A stretch of DNA of 58,876 nucleotides from Acidimicrobiales bacterium (GTDB taxonomy: Bacteria; Actinomycetota; Acidimicrobiia; Acidimicrobiales; JAVJTC01), in NCBI GenBank assembly GCA_040219085.1, contig JAVJTC010000013.1:1-58876 (forward strand), in the 5' to 3' direction. A model generated the notes under the pieces. The model did no database searches. It worked only from the letters and a program-made list of their open reading frames with translations, and was not told the DNA's origin. Positions 13,768 to 56,716 of this stretch are shown here, piece after piece. Made by a program: the position numbers and the translations under genes. Numbering within the stretch: position 1 is the stretch's first letter; the number at the start of each line of letters is the position of its first letter.

Positions 13768-13821
13768 TTGCAAAAGTCGATCGGATTAGTAGAGTTTGAA
13801 CCCAGTAAAGCCGATCGGATT
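13768..13821 (+). promoter_or_regulatory. Sulfite reductase promoter with paired operator-like repeats
   Basis: -35 TTGCAA (13768-13773), 16-base spacer, -10 TAGAGT (13790-13795). A 15-bp repeat AAAG(T/C)CGATCGGATT occurs at 13773-13787, inside the spacer, and again at 13807-13821, just past the expected start site; 14 of 15 bases are identical and the copies are 34 bases apart. Each contains a central CGATCG palindrome. Placement on both sides of the -10 box is what a repressor operator pair would look like. The regulator is not in the window. Confidence 0.6.
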
Positions 13822-13884
13822 CGTCATGATTCATGGCGGTGCGGTCGCGCCGGTCAGACAGGAACCCCCGAGAGGACCGCCCCC

Positions 13885-16370: not shown

Positions 16371-17840
16371 TCAGCCCGACGCTGTGGAGTTGGTCCCACC
16401 ACACCAGCGTTCGAGGTCGTCGAGCGAACACCGCTTCGGGGTGATCACCAACAGGACGTCCGCGGCGGCGAGCTCACTGAGGCCTGCGGCGACGATCGTC
16501 TCGCCACCGCGCCTGATCACTGCCACTCGAGCACCCCCCGGCGGGGGAGACTCTCGCAGGGTGACCCCGACGAGTGCGGAGTCGGCCGGGATGGTGACCT
16601 CGACGAGGTCCGCATCGAGCGCGTCGATGGGGACGATCTCCGGTCGAACCGCCACGGGCCCGTCGGCCTCGACCTCGAGGCGCCGTGCCAGCAGCCCGAC
16701 GGTCGGACCTTGAACCGCAACCGACACCACGACCACCACGAAGGTCACATCGAAGATGAGGGCACCGTCGGGGTGACCGGCGGTGAACGGGATGGTGGCG
16801 AGCACGACGGGAACCGCCCCGCGCAGACCCGCCCACGAGATGACGGCCATCCTGCGCAGAGGTGTCCTCGACCACGCCAGGACCGACACGACAGCGAGGG
16901 GTCTGGCGACTACGACCAACGCGAGCGCGAGCACGACCGAGGACCCGATGTTGTTCGCGAGGTCACTCGGGAACACGAGGATGCCCAGAAGGAGGAACAA
17001 CACGCCCTGGGCCGTGGCGGCGAGCCCCTCGTGGAAGTAGAGCATCCCCCTCGACGAGCGCTCCGCGCTCGCGACGACCACTCCCGTGAGATAGACCGCG
17101 AGGAACCCGGAACCCCCGACGACGGCAGCGGTCCCGTAAGAGAGGGCTGCGATGGCGAGCGTGATCACACCCAGAGACGACACTGCGGGCCCCGTCAGGC
17201 GGCCGATCAGCACGCGGGCGAACCAACCGACACCGACACCGACGATCAGCCCGAGCCCGAGCTGTGCGACGAGAAACCCGACCCAGTCCCACGCCGAGGG
17301 GTCCCCGCGCCAGACTTCGACCATGCCCACCGTCAACAGGACGGCGACCGGGTCGTTCATCCCGGACTCCAGCTGGAGAAGGCGACGACTACCCGTCGGC
17401 AGCGATTCGGAGCGCAGCGCGGCAAACACCGCGGCCGCGTCGGTGGAGGCGACGACCGAGCCGAGCAGCAGCGCCGTGGTCGGGTCCTTTCCGACCAGGA
17501 GCCACGCCGCCACCGCGACCACCCCGGCCGTGATCACGACGCCGACGGTTGCGAGGAAGGCGGCGGGAACCCCTGCGGAACGGAAGGCCGCCCGATCGGT
17601 GCCGAGCCCACCCTCGAAGAGGATGACCACGAGCGCGACGGTCGCGATGTTCTGCGCGAGCTCCGCGTCGTCGAAACGGACGAGCGCGAGACCCTCGTCC
17701 GCGACCAGCATCCCGAGACCTAGGAACAACAACAGACTCGGAATGCGGAAGCGGGCTGCGAGGCCGCTCGCTATCACTCCGATGAACAGCAGTCCCCCGG
17801 CGATCAGAACGCCGACGTCGACCGGGAATCCCGAGGTCAC
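16371..17840 (-). CDS. CPA1 cation/proton antiporter with C-terminal TrkA_C (NhaP2-like)
   Basis: 489 residues from GTG 17840. About 12 membrane segments; the conserved carrier motif VASTDAAAVFAALR lies in the first third, then QLESGMNDPVAVLLT, typical of NhaP2/CvrA potassium-proton antiporters. The last ~90 residues (VEVTIPADSALVGVTLRES ... DVLLVITPKR) form an RCK_C/TrkA_C ligand-binding domain that usually gates transport. No ATG/GTG/TTG start lies in frame between the predicted transcription start and GTG 17840. The start overlaps the stop of a small leader ORF by four bases, which suggests coupled translation. Confidence 0.88.
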   Translation of the reverse strand: MTSGFPVDVGVLIAGGLLFIGVIASGLAARFRIPSLLLFLGLGMLVADEGLALVRFDDAELAQNIATVALVVILFEGGLGTDRAAFRSAGVPAAFLATVGVVITAGVVAVAAWLLVGKDPTTALLLGSVVASTDAAAVFAALRSESLPTGSRRLLQLESGMNDPVAVLLTVGMVEVWRGDPSAWDWVGFLVAQLGLGLIVGVGVGWFARVLIGRLTGPAVSSLGVITLAIAALSYGTAAVVGGSGFLAVYLTGVVVASAERSSRGMLYFHEGLAATAQGVLFLLLGILVFPSDLANNIGSSVVLALALVVVARPLAVVSVLAWSRTPLRRMAVISWAGLRGAVPVVLATIPFTAGHPDGALIFDVTFVVVVVSVAVQGPTVGLLARRLEVEADGPVAVRPEIVPIDALDADLVEVTIPADSALVGVTLRESPPPGGARVAVIRRGGETIVAAGLSELAAADVLLVITPKRCSLDDLERWCGGTNSTASG

Positions 17841-17893
17841 ACCGACCCGACCCGCAGCGAACAGGACCGGGTCCGGTACGGCAAGGCCGACAT
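17837..17893 (-). CDS. 18-residue leader ORF overlapping the antiporter start
   Basis: ATG 17893 to TGA 17837 encodes MSALPYRTRSCSLRVGSV. A -10 box TACATT lies 6 bases before the ATG, so the ORF would begin at the mRNA 5' end. Its last bases GTGTGA contain the antiporter GTG, giving a GTGA overlap. The peptide itself resembles nothing known; the arrangement fits a leader that controls antiporter translation. Chance occurrence of a short frame is the alternative. Confidence 0.45.
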   Translation of the reverse strand: MSALPYRTRSCSLRVGSV

Positions 17894-17899
17894 GGCGAC

Positions 17900-17905
17900 A
17901 ATGTA
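17900..17905 (-). promoter_or_regulatory. -10 box of the antiporter transcript
   Basis: TACATT on the minus strand, 6 bases before the leader ORF ATG. No good -35 hexamer is seen. Confidence 0.45.
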
Positions 17906-17964: not shown

Positions 17965-17970
17965 TATCGT
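17965..17970 (+). promoter_or_regulatory. -10 box of the RskA-like gene (leaderless)
   Basis: TATCGT, exactly 6 bases before the GTG at 17977; same geometry as nadD and others here. Confidence 0.45.
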
Positions 17971-17976
17971 CGTCGC

Positions 17977-18429
17977 GTGTCTCTGAAGGTCGCAGCGCTG
18001 GCCGCGCTCCTGTGCGCTGCTGCGCTCGCTGTCCCCATCGTCGTCGCGCTCGTGGCCGACGACGCTCCCGACATCGAGATCCTCGACGCGGCACCCCTCG
18101 AATCACCCGACGGGAACGGCGCAGGCGGTCGGGTCGAACTGATCACGGTCGACGGGCAACCCGAACTCAAGGTCGATCTGGCCGAGACGACGGTCCCGGC
18201 TGGCACGTTTCTCGAGGTCTGGCTCGTCGAAACCGACCGGGCCGTTGCCGACGCACCGGGCCAGTCACTCGGCCCGGTGCGCGATCAGGGACGCAACGTC
18301 CTGCCGACGGGCGTCGACCTGGACCGGTTCGCGACGGTCCTCGTGACCGCCGAACCCCTCGACGGCGACCCGGTCCGCTCCGGAGATGTCGTCTACGCCG
18401 CGACCTTCGACGTCACCACCCCCCGGTGA
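17977..18429 (+). CDS. Stand-alone RskA-type anti-sigma ectodomain protein
   Basis: 150 residues from GTG 17977. One N-terminal hydrophobic segment (residues ~4-25) then an extracellular beta domain with TTVPAGTFLEVWLVETD, the block that characterises the C-terminal domain of RskA/anti-sigma-K proteins, and GVDLDRFATVLVTAEPLDGD. The usual cytoplasmic zinc-binding anti-sigma domain is missing, and no sigma factor gene is adjacent. It may be a membrane-anchored sensor domain or an adapted periplasmic protein. Divergent from the antiporter leader, from which it is separated by 83 bases. Confidence 0.7.
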   Translation: MSLKVAALAALLCAAALAVPIVVALVADDAPDIEILDAAPLESPDGNGAGGRVELITVDGQPELKVDLAETTVPAGTFLEVWLVETDRAVADAPGQSLGPVRDQGRNVLPTGVDLDRFATVLVTAEPLDGDPVRSGDVVYAATFDVTTPR

Positions 18430-20920: not shown

Positions 20921-22204
20921 TCAGATGCGGATCTGACCGTCGCCGGTGACGACGTACTTCGTCGTGGTCAGCTGGGTCAGCCCCATGGGCCCCCGAGCGT
21001 GCAGCTTCTGGATAGAGATGCCGATCTCCGCGCCGAAACCGAACTCCTCGCCGTCCACGAACCGTGTGGACGCGTTGACGAGGACGGCGGCCGCGTCGAC
21101 CTCGCGGGTGAACCGGTTGGCCGCACCGATGTCGGAGGTGACGATCGCCTCGGAGTGCCCGGAGCTGGTCGCGTTGACGTGCGCGATGGCCTCGTCGAGG
21201 TCGTCGACGACGCGCACCGACATCTTGAGGTCCAGGTACTCGGTGGACCAGTCCTCCTCGGTGGCCTCGCCCACGCCGGCGACGATGCGCCGTGTCATGG
21301 CATCGCCGACCAGCGACACGCCTTCGAGCGCCGCCACCGCACGCGGCAGGAACCGCTCGGCGACGGCGCGGTGCACCACGAGCGACTCGGCAGCGTTGCA
21401 CACCGACGGGCGCTGCATCTTGGCGTTGACCAGGATCCGCTCGGCCATGTCGAGATCCGCCGACGCGTCCACGTAGACGTGGCAGTTGCCGTCGCCATCG
21501 ATGATGGTGGGGACGGTGGCGTTCGCCTTCACCGAGGCGATCAGCTTTCGACCTCCCCGTGGGATCAGACAGTCGATGTGGTTCGACAGCTGCATGAACT
21601 CGACGGCCGCCGAATGGCGGGTGTCCTCCACGAGCAGAAGTGAGTCCTCGGGCAGACCCGCCGACGCGAAGGCCTCACGCAGGACCGCCGCGATCGCGAT
21701 GTTCGAGTTGATCGCCGACCCGGAGCCGCGCAGGAAGGCGACATTGCCGGACTTGAGGCACAGACCGGCGGCGTCGGAGGTGACGTTCGGGCGGCTCTCG
21801 TAGATGATCGCGACCACTCCGAGGGGCACCCGGACCTGACGGATCTCGAGCCCGTTGGGTCGCACCCAGCCGGCGACGATCTCTCCGACCGGGTCCGCGA
21901 GTCCGGCGACCTGTCGCAGCCCGGCGGCCATTGCGGCAACCCTCGCGTCGCTGAGGCGGAGCCGGTCCACCAGGGCCTCGGGCACGCCGTTGACGGCTGC
22001 GGCGGTGATGTCGGCCTCGTTGGCGGCCACGAGACCGTCACGCCGGGATTCGAGCAGGTCGGCGGCCCGACGCAGGGCATCGTCCTTGCGCGCCGTGGAG
22101 GCCTGGGCGAGCGCCGGCGCCGCAGCTTTCGCCCGCTCACCAAGGGCCAGCATCGCGGCGCGGGTGCGGCCGCCTTCGTCGAGTCCGTTCCCGTCTGCAT
22201 TCAC
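20921..22204 (-). CDS. proA: Glutamate-5-semialdehyde dehydrogenase
   Basis: 427 residues from GTG 22204, supported by a -10 box 7 bases upstream; a Met at residue 18 would give a 410-residue form. Aldehyde-dehydrogenase superfamily: VPLGVVAIIYESRPNVTSDA, the NADPH-binding GSGSAINSN region, and catalytic Cys in QRPSVCNAAE (about residue 265). It reduces gamma-glutamyl phosphate to glutamate semialdehyde in proline synthesis. The partner kinase gene proB lies 1.8 kb away beyond murJ on the same strand, a split arrangement. Confidence 0.95.
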   Translation of the reverse strand: MNADGNGLDEGGRTRAAMLALGERAKAAAPALAQASTARKDDALRRAADLLESRRDGLVAANEADITAAAVNGVPEALVDRLRLSDARVAAMAAGLRQVAGLADPVGEIVAGWVRPNGLEIRQVRVPLGVVAIIYESRPNVTSDAAGLCLKSGNVAFLRGSGSAINSNIAIAAVLREAFASAGLPEDSLLLVEDTRHSAAVEFMQLSNHIDCLIPRGGRKLIASVKANATVPTIIDGDGNCHVYVDASADLDMAERILVNAKMQRPSVCNAAESLVVHRAVAERFLPRAVAALEGVSLVGDAMTRRIVAGVGEATEEDWSTEYLDLKMSVRVVDDLDEAIAHVNATSSGHSEAIVTSDIGAANRFTREVDAAAVLVNASTRFVDGEEFGFGAEIGISIQKLHARGPMGLTQLTTTKYVVTGDGQIRI

Positions 22205-44146: not shown

Positions 44147-44218
44147 GCGGGTGTAGTTCAACGGCCAGAACCTCAGCCTTCCAAGCTGATGATGCCGGTT
44201 CGATTCCGGTCACCCGCT
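44147..44218 (+). tRNA. tRNA-Gly (anticodon TCC)
   Basis: Acceptor GCGGGTG/CACCCGC, D-arm with GTTCAACGGCCAGAAC, anticodon loop TTCCAAG (TCC), T-arm CCGGT/TTCGATT/CCGG-type, discriminator T at 44218 and encoded CCA at 44219-44221. A -10-like TAACGT lies at 44131-44136. Accessory DNA starts directly behind it, so its 3' end is the likely integration site of the right-hand island. Confidence 0.95.
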
Positions 44219-44221
44219 CCA

Positions 44222-55530: not shown

Positions 55531-55580
55531 ATAGATGCCATAGGCGCCCACGTCTGAGCCGGGGCCTCTAAGGCATCTAT
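55531..55580. repeat. 50-bp palindromic element, copy 2
   Basis: Outer arms ATAGATGCC (55531-55539) and GGCATCTAT (55572-55580) as in copy 1; the inner stem differs in sequence but still pairs (AGGC-g-CCC with GGGGCCT). It lies between convergent genes and contains the stop codon of the helicase gene, so a bidirectional terminator is plausible. Confidence 0.7.
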
Positions 55581-56716
55581 GAGGGCTGATCGTCGGACAG
55601 GCGCCATGACCACGATCCGTCGCCCGCGAACCCCTGGCGGCTACTCAGGACCCCGACTCGCTTCTTCGCCGAGTTGAGCTGCTTGTCGGAGAACCCGGCC
55701 TCCCGTCCCCGCCGGAGCATCTCCTTCGCCGGGACCGCCCCCTCGGCCAACTCGGCCCTCAGGAACTCGTCGACCTCGCGGGCCGGGACGTCGTCGGAGC
55801 CGCCCATCAGCGCGTCAGCGTCGAGGTCGACAGCCCCCGCCCACTCGATGCGGCTGCACCCGTGCTCATCGACGGGGACTAAGCGGTAACCGAGCGCAGG
55901 AGGCCGCTCGGCCAGGTTCGACTTCACCGAAGCCAGCACCCGCAGACCCGCGTCGTCGGGGTGATCACCCGCGACGAGGACCGATCTCGCCGCCCCGGCG
56001 ATCCCGATGGACCCGCCACCGCGGTACAGCGCCTTGGGACCTCCGGACTTGTTCAGGTGCCGGAGGGCCAACACAGCCGCGCCCGTCGCGGCTGCCATGT
56101 CGGCGAGGGGACGCAGCCCGGCCCTCACGGCCTGGTCCTTGTGGACGTCGAGGGTCGTGTGGAGGTAGGCGTTCAACACATCAATGATCACAAGGACAGC
56201 TCCAACCTCGTCGACGACGGCCCGGACCTGTTCGACGTGCACGGGAAGGGAAAGCTCGGTGAGCGAGTCGGGCGACTCACCCCTCACGGCCTCGACCACG
56301 TAGACGAGATCCGGGTCACCCCCCGCCGCGTCGACGCGAGGCCGGATCGTGTCAGCGACTCCGTCCTCCGCAGACAGAAGGACCACAGCCGCCGGTTGAC
56401 GGCGTCCATCAACACCGCAGCCCGGCATCACGCCGCCGGTCGTGACACGGGCAGCGATGTCGAGCGCGAGCGTCGACTTCCCCACCCCGGGGTCACCGTC
56501 GAGCATCGTCAGCTTGCCGAACGGCATCCGCCCCGGCCACATCCATCGAACAACTTCGGGCTCCACGTCACCGAGACGAATGACAGACGCGCCCGTCGAC
56601 TGCAAACGCTCATATCGGCACTCTTCGGCCGGTGCGGTCCCCTCGACAGACACCGGGTCGTCGAACCAGGCCTCGGCGGCGGCATCGACCCCGACGTCAC
56701 GCATCGACCGGGTCAC
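55577..56716 (-). CDS. RepA/AAA_25-type hexameric helicase-like ATPase
   Basis: 379 residues from GTG 56716, overlapping the previous stop (GTGA). RecA-like core: Walker A DGDPGVGKSTLALDIA at about residues 73-88, VVLLSAEDGVADTIRPR, Walker B VLVIIDVLNAYLH at about 165, and ALRHLNKSGGPKALYRGGGS with the conserved His/Asn. A C-terminal winged-helix-like part (VDEFLRAELAEGAVPAKEML). This family serves plasmids, phages and integrative elements as the replicative helicase or primase partner. Marks the region as an integrated element. Confidence 0.82.
   Translation of the reverse strand: MTRSMRDVGVDAAAEAWFDDPVSVEGTAPAEECRYERLQSTGASVIRLGDVEPEVVRWMWPGRMPFGKLTMLDGDPGVGKSTLALDIAARVTTGGVMPGCGVDGRRQPAAVVLLSAEDGVADTIRPRVDAAGGDPDLVYVVEAVRGESPDSLTELSLPVHVEQVRAVVDEVGAVLVIIDVLNAYLHTTLDVHKDQAVRAGLRPLADMAAATGAAVLALRHLNKSGGPKALYRGGGSIGIAGAARSVLVAGDHPDDAGLRVLASVKSNLAERPPALGYRLVPVDEHGCSRIEWAGAVDLDADALMGGSDDVPAREVDEFLRAELAEGAVPAKEMLRRGREAGFSDKQLNSAKKRVGVLSSRQGFAGDGSWSWRLSDDQPS

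Follow-up and report, generated by a model that had tools for sequence, protein, structure and literature searches.

An RTGA-coupled small ORF, predicted to be leaderless, ahead of a potassium/proton antiporter gene in Acidimicrobiales

Mycobacteria are known to have leaderless small ORFs coupled to the downstream gene (Shell et al. 2015, PMC4633059), an overrepresented class of 5-50 codons, opening on a 5'-terminal RTG and ending with a TGA placed over the RTG of the next gene. In M. tuberculosis 23 of 220 leaderless small ORFs are RTGA-coupled, and some of the mycobacterial cases keep the architecture only and not the peptide; a peptide-independent delivery of ribosomes has been proposed for them (PMC4633059) and was restated as a possible widespread role in a 2025 review (PMC12548453). 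Coupling has also been studied in overlapping gene pairs of E. coli and Haloferax, 13 of the 14 tested being strictly coupled (Huber et al. 2019, PMC6728339). Two other mycobacterial systems are related: MIRU insertions, which bring in a short ORF with -4 spacing that keeps the gene expressed after insertion at its start (PMC12548453), and polycysteine leaderless small ORFs, which reportedly act as cysteine attenuators (Canestrari et al. 2020, as cited elsewhere).

The arrangement considered here lies ahead of a K+/H+ antiporter gene in a stretch of 58,876 nucleotides from an Acidimicrobiales bacterium (the whole of the DNA analysed, hereafter the window). It shares with the class of Shell et al. 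the size of the ORF, the TGA over the next RTG, an architecture kept while the peptide has diverged and the overrepresentation, its 5'-terminal RTG being predicted; it differs in belonging to Acidimicrobiales, in recurring at the K+/H+ antiporter family and in being known from sequence only. Overlaps of the ATGA/TGATG type are shared with the pairs of Huber et al., in which coupling was usually strict, but the upstream partner here is an 18-codon ORF predicted to be leaderless. The polycysteine attenuators are likewise leaderless short ORFs ahead of a gene, and differ from the present ORF, which has one Cys, a peptide that is not conserved and another class of downstream gene. The likeness to MIRU insertions is one of principle only, and no repeat element was identified at the antiporter locus. 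The initial annotation had called the design uncommon, a view that does not agree with a class described in mycobacteria and recurring in the source genome; judged by its sequence, the arrangement appears to be a member of that known class, now in Acidimicrobiales, and is not unprecedented. In the limited literature collection consulted, no relevant paper was found that deals with leaderless translation of Acidimicrobiia or with upstream ORFs of antiporters.

Antiporter start and small ORF in the window

The antiporter gene (17840-16371, minus strand) encodes a CPA1-type potassium/proton antiporter of 489 aa with Na_H_Exchanger and TrkA_C domains (PF00999 and PF02080), which scores 459.6 bits against NCBIfam NF003716 (PRK05326), above the curated cut-off of 355. 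It had been stated that no other start is available in its frame. This does not hold as worded, the frame being open upstream of 17840 with in-frame ATG/GTG codons at 18038 and further up, although the choice of 17840 itself stands. The farther starts lie upstream of the -10 box and inside the divergent gene, the codon-usage score is 145 for 17840 versus 125 for 18038, and six homologues (54-74% identity) begin at the residue of GTG 17840, with N-termini MSSGFSVD, MNAGFSVD, MSAGFAVD, VNTGFSVD, MNSSFPVD and MHSTFPVD compared to VTSGFPVD here. On these grounds the predicted antiporter start, GTG 17840, can be considered secure.

The small ORF, the -10 box and the antiporter gene are all on the minus strand. 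The box, TACATT (17905-17900), is separated by the 6-nt spacer GTCGCC from an ATG (17893-17891) that opens the predicted leaderless small ORF, MSALPYRTRSCSLRVGSV (17893-17837), the 18 codons of which are in a different frame from the antiporter and fall in the size range of the mycobacterial class. Its TGA (17839-17837) overlaps the antiporter GTG in a GTGA (17840-17837), the TGA-on-RTG overlap typical of that class. The box 6 nt before the ATG and the 18-codon ORF with its overlapping stop were thus confirmed as first described.

The 6-nt spacing of TACATT is the dominant one in the source genome (peak 6-9 nt), and this box is the sole TANNNT on the minus strand within 17979-17840. Also, the 28 nt immediately 5' of GTG 17840 contain no A, so that no -10 box is possible at leaderless distance from the GTG itself. 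These observations speak against a 5' end elsewhere, that is, an upstream promoter and a conventional leader, with the small ORF not leaderless or not translated. Such an arrangement would be compatible with the lack of a recognisable -35-like hexamer for TACATT and with the low score of its inner positions against the leaderless -10 set of the genome, yet a single TANNNT in 140 nt, at just this spacing, makes it improbable.

GTG 17840 has no GGAGG-like Shine-Dalgarno (SD) sequence, and its SD duplex is -5.3, the medians being -5.0 in operonic genes and -3.0 at control positions. A hairpin is predicted inside the small ORF (17878-17840, minus strand), its 3' arm extending to the initial G of the antiporter GTG. 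An equally good fold was obtained with 8 of 200 shuffled sequences, and over 120 nt the folding does not exceed that of shuffled sequences (z 0.16). The cost of opening the start region is 25.0 kcal/mol, at about the 99th percentile of the starts of the same genome. Start closure differs marginally between small-ORF and direct antiporter loci (p 0.05, or 0.09 without the window) and is not unusual at the other coupled genes of the source genome. RNA structure as a general basis of coupling was rejected, being suggestive in the window, marginal in the relatives and absent at the other coupled genes.

On the plus strand, a divergent gene with a weak RskA_C domain (17977-18429) is also predicted to be leaderless, its GTG following the box TATCGT (17965-17970) by 6 nt, and ~80 bp separate the two predicted leaderless starts, which point in opposite directions. 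This RskA_C-type gene is a neighbour and not part of the small-ORF device. Elsewhere in the window, a direct repeat, CGATCGGATT (GTCGATCGGATTAGT ... GCCGATCGGATTCGT; 13775-13825, plus strand), possibly a regulator site, lies upstream of a nitrite/sulfite reductase-type gene (13885) that is followed by a PAPS-reductase-family gene. A polycysteine small ORF was looked for upstream of the reductase-type gene and none was found. A tRNA-Gly gene (44147-44221) is followed by a gene-sparse stretch to 58876 that encodes one AAA_25 ATPase (55580-56716) along with several proteins for which Pfam gave no match; the segment 44147-58876 looks like a putative integrated element beside a tRNA gene.

Leaderless starts and coupled small ORFs in the source genome

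The source genome was sampled over 1.12 Mb including the window, yielding 894 genes from a simple codon-usage caller, of which the 567 preceded by 40 bp or more of free DNA were analysed for upstream signals. Starts predicted to be leaderless are abundant in this genome. Distances from TANNNT to the start form a sharp peak, with 41, 20, 28 and 12 genes at 6, 7, 8 and 9 nt, no other spacing shown having more than 8, and 103 of the 567 genes carry a TANNNT 5-9 nt before the start. The same peak is present in the relative G133 (complete genome, 0.8 Mb sampled).

Twenty-five leaderless-candidate small ORFs were found near gene starts, 7 of them stopping exactly in RTGA register, while other stops within 12 nt of the gene start are single cases at -6 and -10. 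The coupled pattern, defined as TANNNT-(5-8)-RTG, the RTG being the start of an ORF with its stop in the RTGA of the gene, occurs in 7 of the 567 genes; 100 dinucleotide shuffles, in which only the upstream DNA was shuffled and start codons were kept fixed, gave a mean of 1.3 and never more than 5. The overrepresentation that marks the mycobacterial class is therefore present in the source genome, with a possible chance share of about one fifth (1.3 of 7) among the candidates. In G133, 3 coupled small ORFs were recovered versus 0.8 expected, which agrees in direction and is weak when taken alone.

Besides the antiporter, six genes of the source genome show the pattern (L081 9737, L084 11557, L089 13796, L110 6622, L079 7984, L092 8581), their leaderless-candidate small ORFs having 6-59 codons and ending on RTGA. 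Putative products among the six, judged from protein sequence, include a ribonucleotide reductase and glutamate-synthase-like, acyltransferase and siderophore-interacting-type proteins.

Antiporter loci of Acidimicrobiales relatives

Among 31 antiporter loci, whose starts were in part chosen by eye in the relatives, 8 carry a coupled leaderless small ORF at the antiporter start when the -10 pattern is relaxed (mean of the shuffles 0.76), and 5 do so with strict TANNNT (mean of the shuffles 0.10); neither count was reached in any of 300 shuffles. What recurs at the coupled loci is the -10 spacing of 6-7 nt together with the stop/start overlap, the small ORFs themselves ranging from 7 to 27 codons. 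At 68% identity, L051 has CACGAT, 27 codons and an ATGA overlap, and L004 AACAAT, 26 codons and GTGA. GTGA is also seen in L053 (TACTCT, 9 codons), L069 (TAGTCT, 12 codons) and L070 (TAGCCT, 16 codons), TGATG in L009 (CACAAT, 7 codons), and in L068 (TATCTT, 21 codons) the stop lies 4 nt inside the antiporter. The small ORF with its RTGA coupling to the antiporter is thus supported, at the level of prediction, as a real and recurrent leaderless arrangement. Several of these -10 boxes are weak (CACGAT, AACAAT, CACAAT), and L004 and L009 contain SD-like GGGAGG/GGGAG, from which their antiporters may possibly initiate independently.

The latter observation bears on the alternative that the small ORF of the window is translated but incidental, the antiporter initiating alone at GTG 17840 through a weak SD-like or non-SD start and the overlap being a by-product of a common motif. 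RTGA is indeed found at the start of 197 of the 567 genes, the SD duplex of the antiporter is ordinary for the genome, and clear SD-like sequences are present in these relatives. The start codons were, however, held constant in the shuffles that yielded 1.3 coupled genes, the antiporter loci likewise exceed their shuffles, and GTG 17840 abuts a hairpin and is among the costliest starts to open (about the 99th percentile), so that this explanation is considered unlikely.

Conservation of the ORF and its overlap across related genomes had been proposed as a check, and relatives without the ORF as refuting the idea. The coupled layout does recur, but the peptides have diverged and the closest relatives have no small ORF, the antiporter itself being predicted to be leaderless there. 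In the nearest, Ilumatobacter nonamiensis (74%), the antiporter ATG is preceded at 9 nt by TAGGTT, and in L129 and L130 (54-59%) at 5 nt by TACTGT and TAGAAT, in all three without a small ORF. TACCCT and TACGCT precede the antiporter GTG by 6-7 nt in L054 and L007, and in L052, the tree neighbour of the window antiporter, the gene seems, by eye, to follow an upstream gene. Mapped on a tree of 34 antiporter sequences, presence of the small ORF requires 6 changes, at least 5 of them forced by well-supported branches. No further genome was found in the family of the source genome; a search of the families of the nearest matches added 5 loci, one of which (L128) equals L032 in 5' sequence.

An alignment of seven small-ORF peptides has no invariant column. 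The GC3 of the small ORF is 0.94 in the window versus 0.50-0.87 elsewhere, and the latter values reveal no general selection on the peptide. This bears on a regulatory leader peptide or attenuator, in which the speed or stalling of small-ORF translation would sense ions or an amino acid and set antiporter translation. The position of the small ORF and its strong predicted hairpin would suit such a device, which has a reported mycobacterial precedent in the polycysteine attenuators (Canestrari et al. 2020, as cited elsewhere) and could account for an excess at one gene family (see below). It is nevertheless highly improbable given a peptide that is not conserved, with a single Cys and no codon run, the lack of the ORF in the closest relatives, and a leader in which neither a terminator or attenuator nor an Rfam or riboswitch match was found. 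A riboswitch or terminator-attenuated leader was rejected on the last two counts, and a polycysteine attenuator because MSALPYRTRSCSLRVGSV has one Cys and no consecutive Cys codons and is not conserved. Ion-homeostasis control, as suggested by the initial annotation, was not borne out, and ion-responsive or peptide-sensing control by the small ORF appears unsupported.

When a single strict rule was applied, coupling was scored at 4 of 36 antiporter loci, or at 3 of 35 with the window set aside, the background in two genome samples being 10 of 978 genes (9 of 977 without the window). The difference with the window excluded is significant (Fisher p 0.007), but the rule accepted any in-frame start in a range for the antiporter, which biases toward matches, and the apparent enrichment at this family is therefore treated as a lead and not as a result. 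In a control family, proA, 0 of 30 loci are coupled and 29 of 30 have TANNNT directly before an in-frame start; the difference in coupling between antiporter and proA is not significant alone (p 0.24). A putative glutamate-5-semialdehyde dehydrogenase (proA-type) gene is also present in the window (20921-22204, minus strand). In the Acidimicrobiales proA-type loci (L173-L202) the TANNNT of those 29 lies 5-9 nt before the start, a strikingly conserved predicted leaderless start, which implies that the longer upstream starts are wrong.

Proposed role of the small ORF

The preferred reading, with a probability of about 0.7, is that the small ORF acts as a non-specific, RTGA-coupled ribosome-delivery ORF for the antiporter. 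Recurrence of the -10 spacing and overlap without conservation of the peptide fits ribosome delivery and not a sensing peptide. The antiporter mRNA would begin at A17893 or no more than two bases from it, and a 70S ribosome would initiate on its 5'-terminal AUG, translate 18 codons of which the amino-acid identity is irrelevant, melt the hairpin abutting the antiporter start, terminate at the UGA inside GUGA, and then presumably re-initiate on, or be handed over to, GUG 17840. With a hairpin at the GTG and a high opening cost, small-ORF translation would also clear the start site, and such melting is possibly needed for the antiporter to start. The small ORF would be an adaptor, by which a gene ~50 nt downstream of the transcription start site gains the common leaderless entry of the lineage. 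The constant element would be a -10 box with the first translated codon ~6 nt on: an antiporter whose own start codon takes this position would be directly leaderless, and where the start is farther down, a small ORF would bridge the gap and end on it.

Dependence of antiporter translation on the small ORF, as initially predicted, is plausible given the lack of a strong SD, the closed hairpin at the start and the mostly strict coupling of overlaps elsewhere, its degree being a matter of inference. A stronger version, in which the small ORF has been repeatedly selected as a gate in this antiporter family, the structure-locked antiporter start being opened only by a leaderless-entry 70S ribosome, so that K+/H+ antiport follows leaderless-favouring conditions, is quite doubtful.

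Annotation may miss such small ORFs and misplace starts. The arrangement would extend the mycobacterial class to Acidimicrobiales, and the antiporters, predicted to be either directly leaderless or bridged by a small ORF, would form a natural orthologue series on which the idea of ribosome delivery can be tested.
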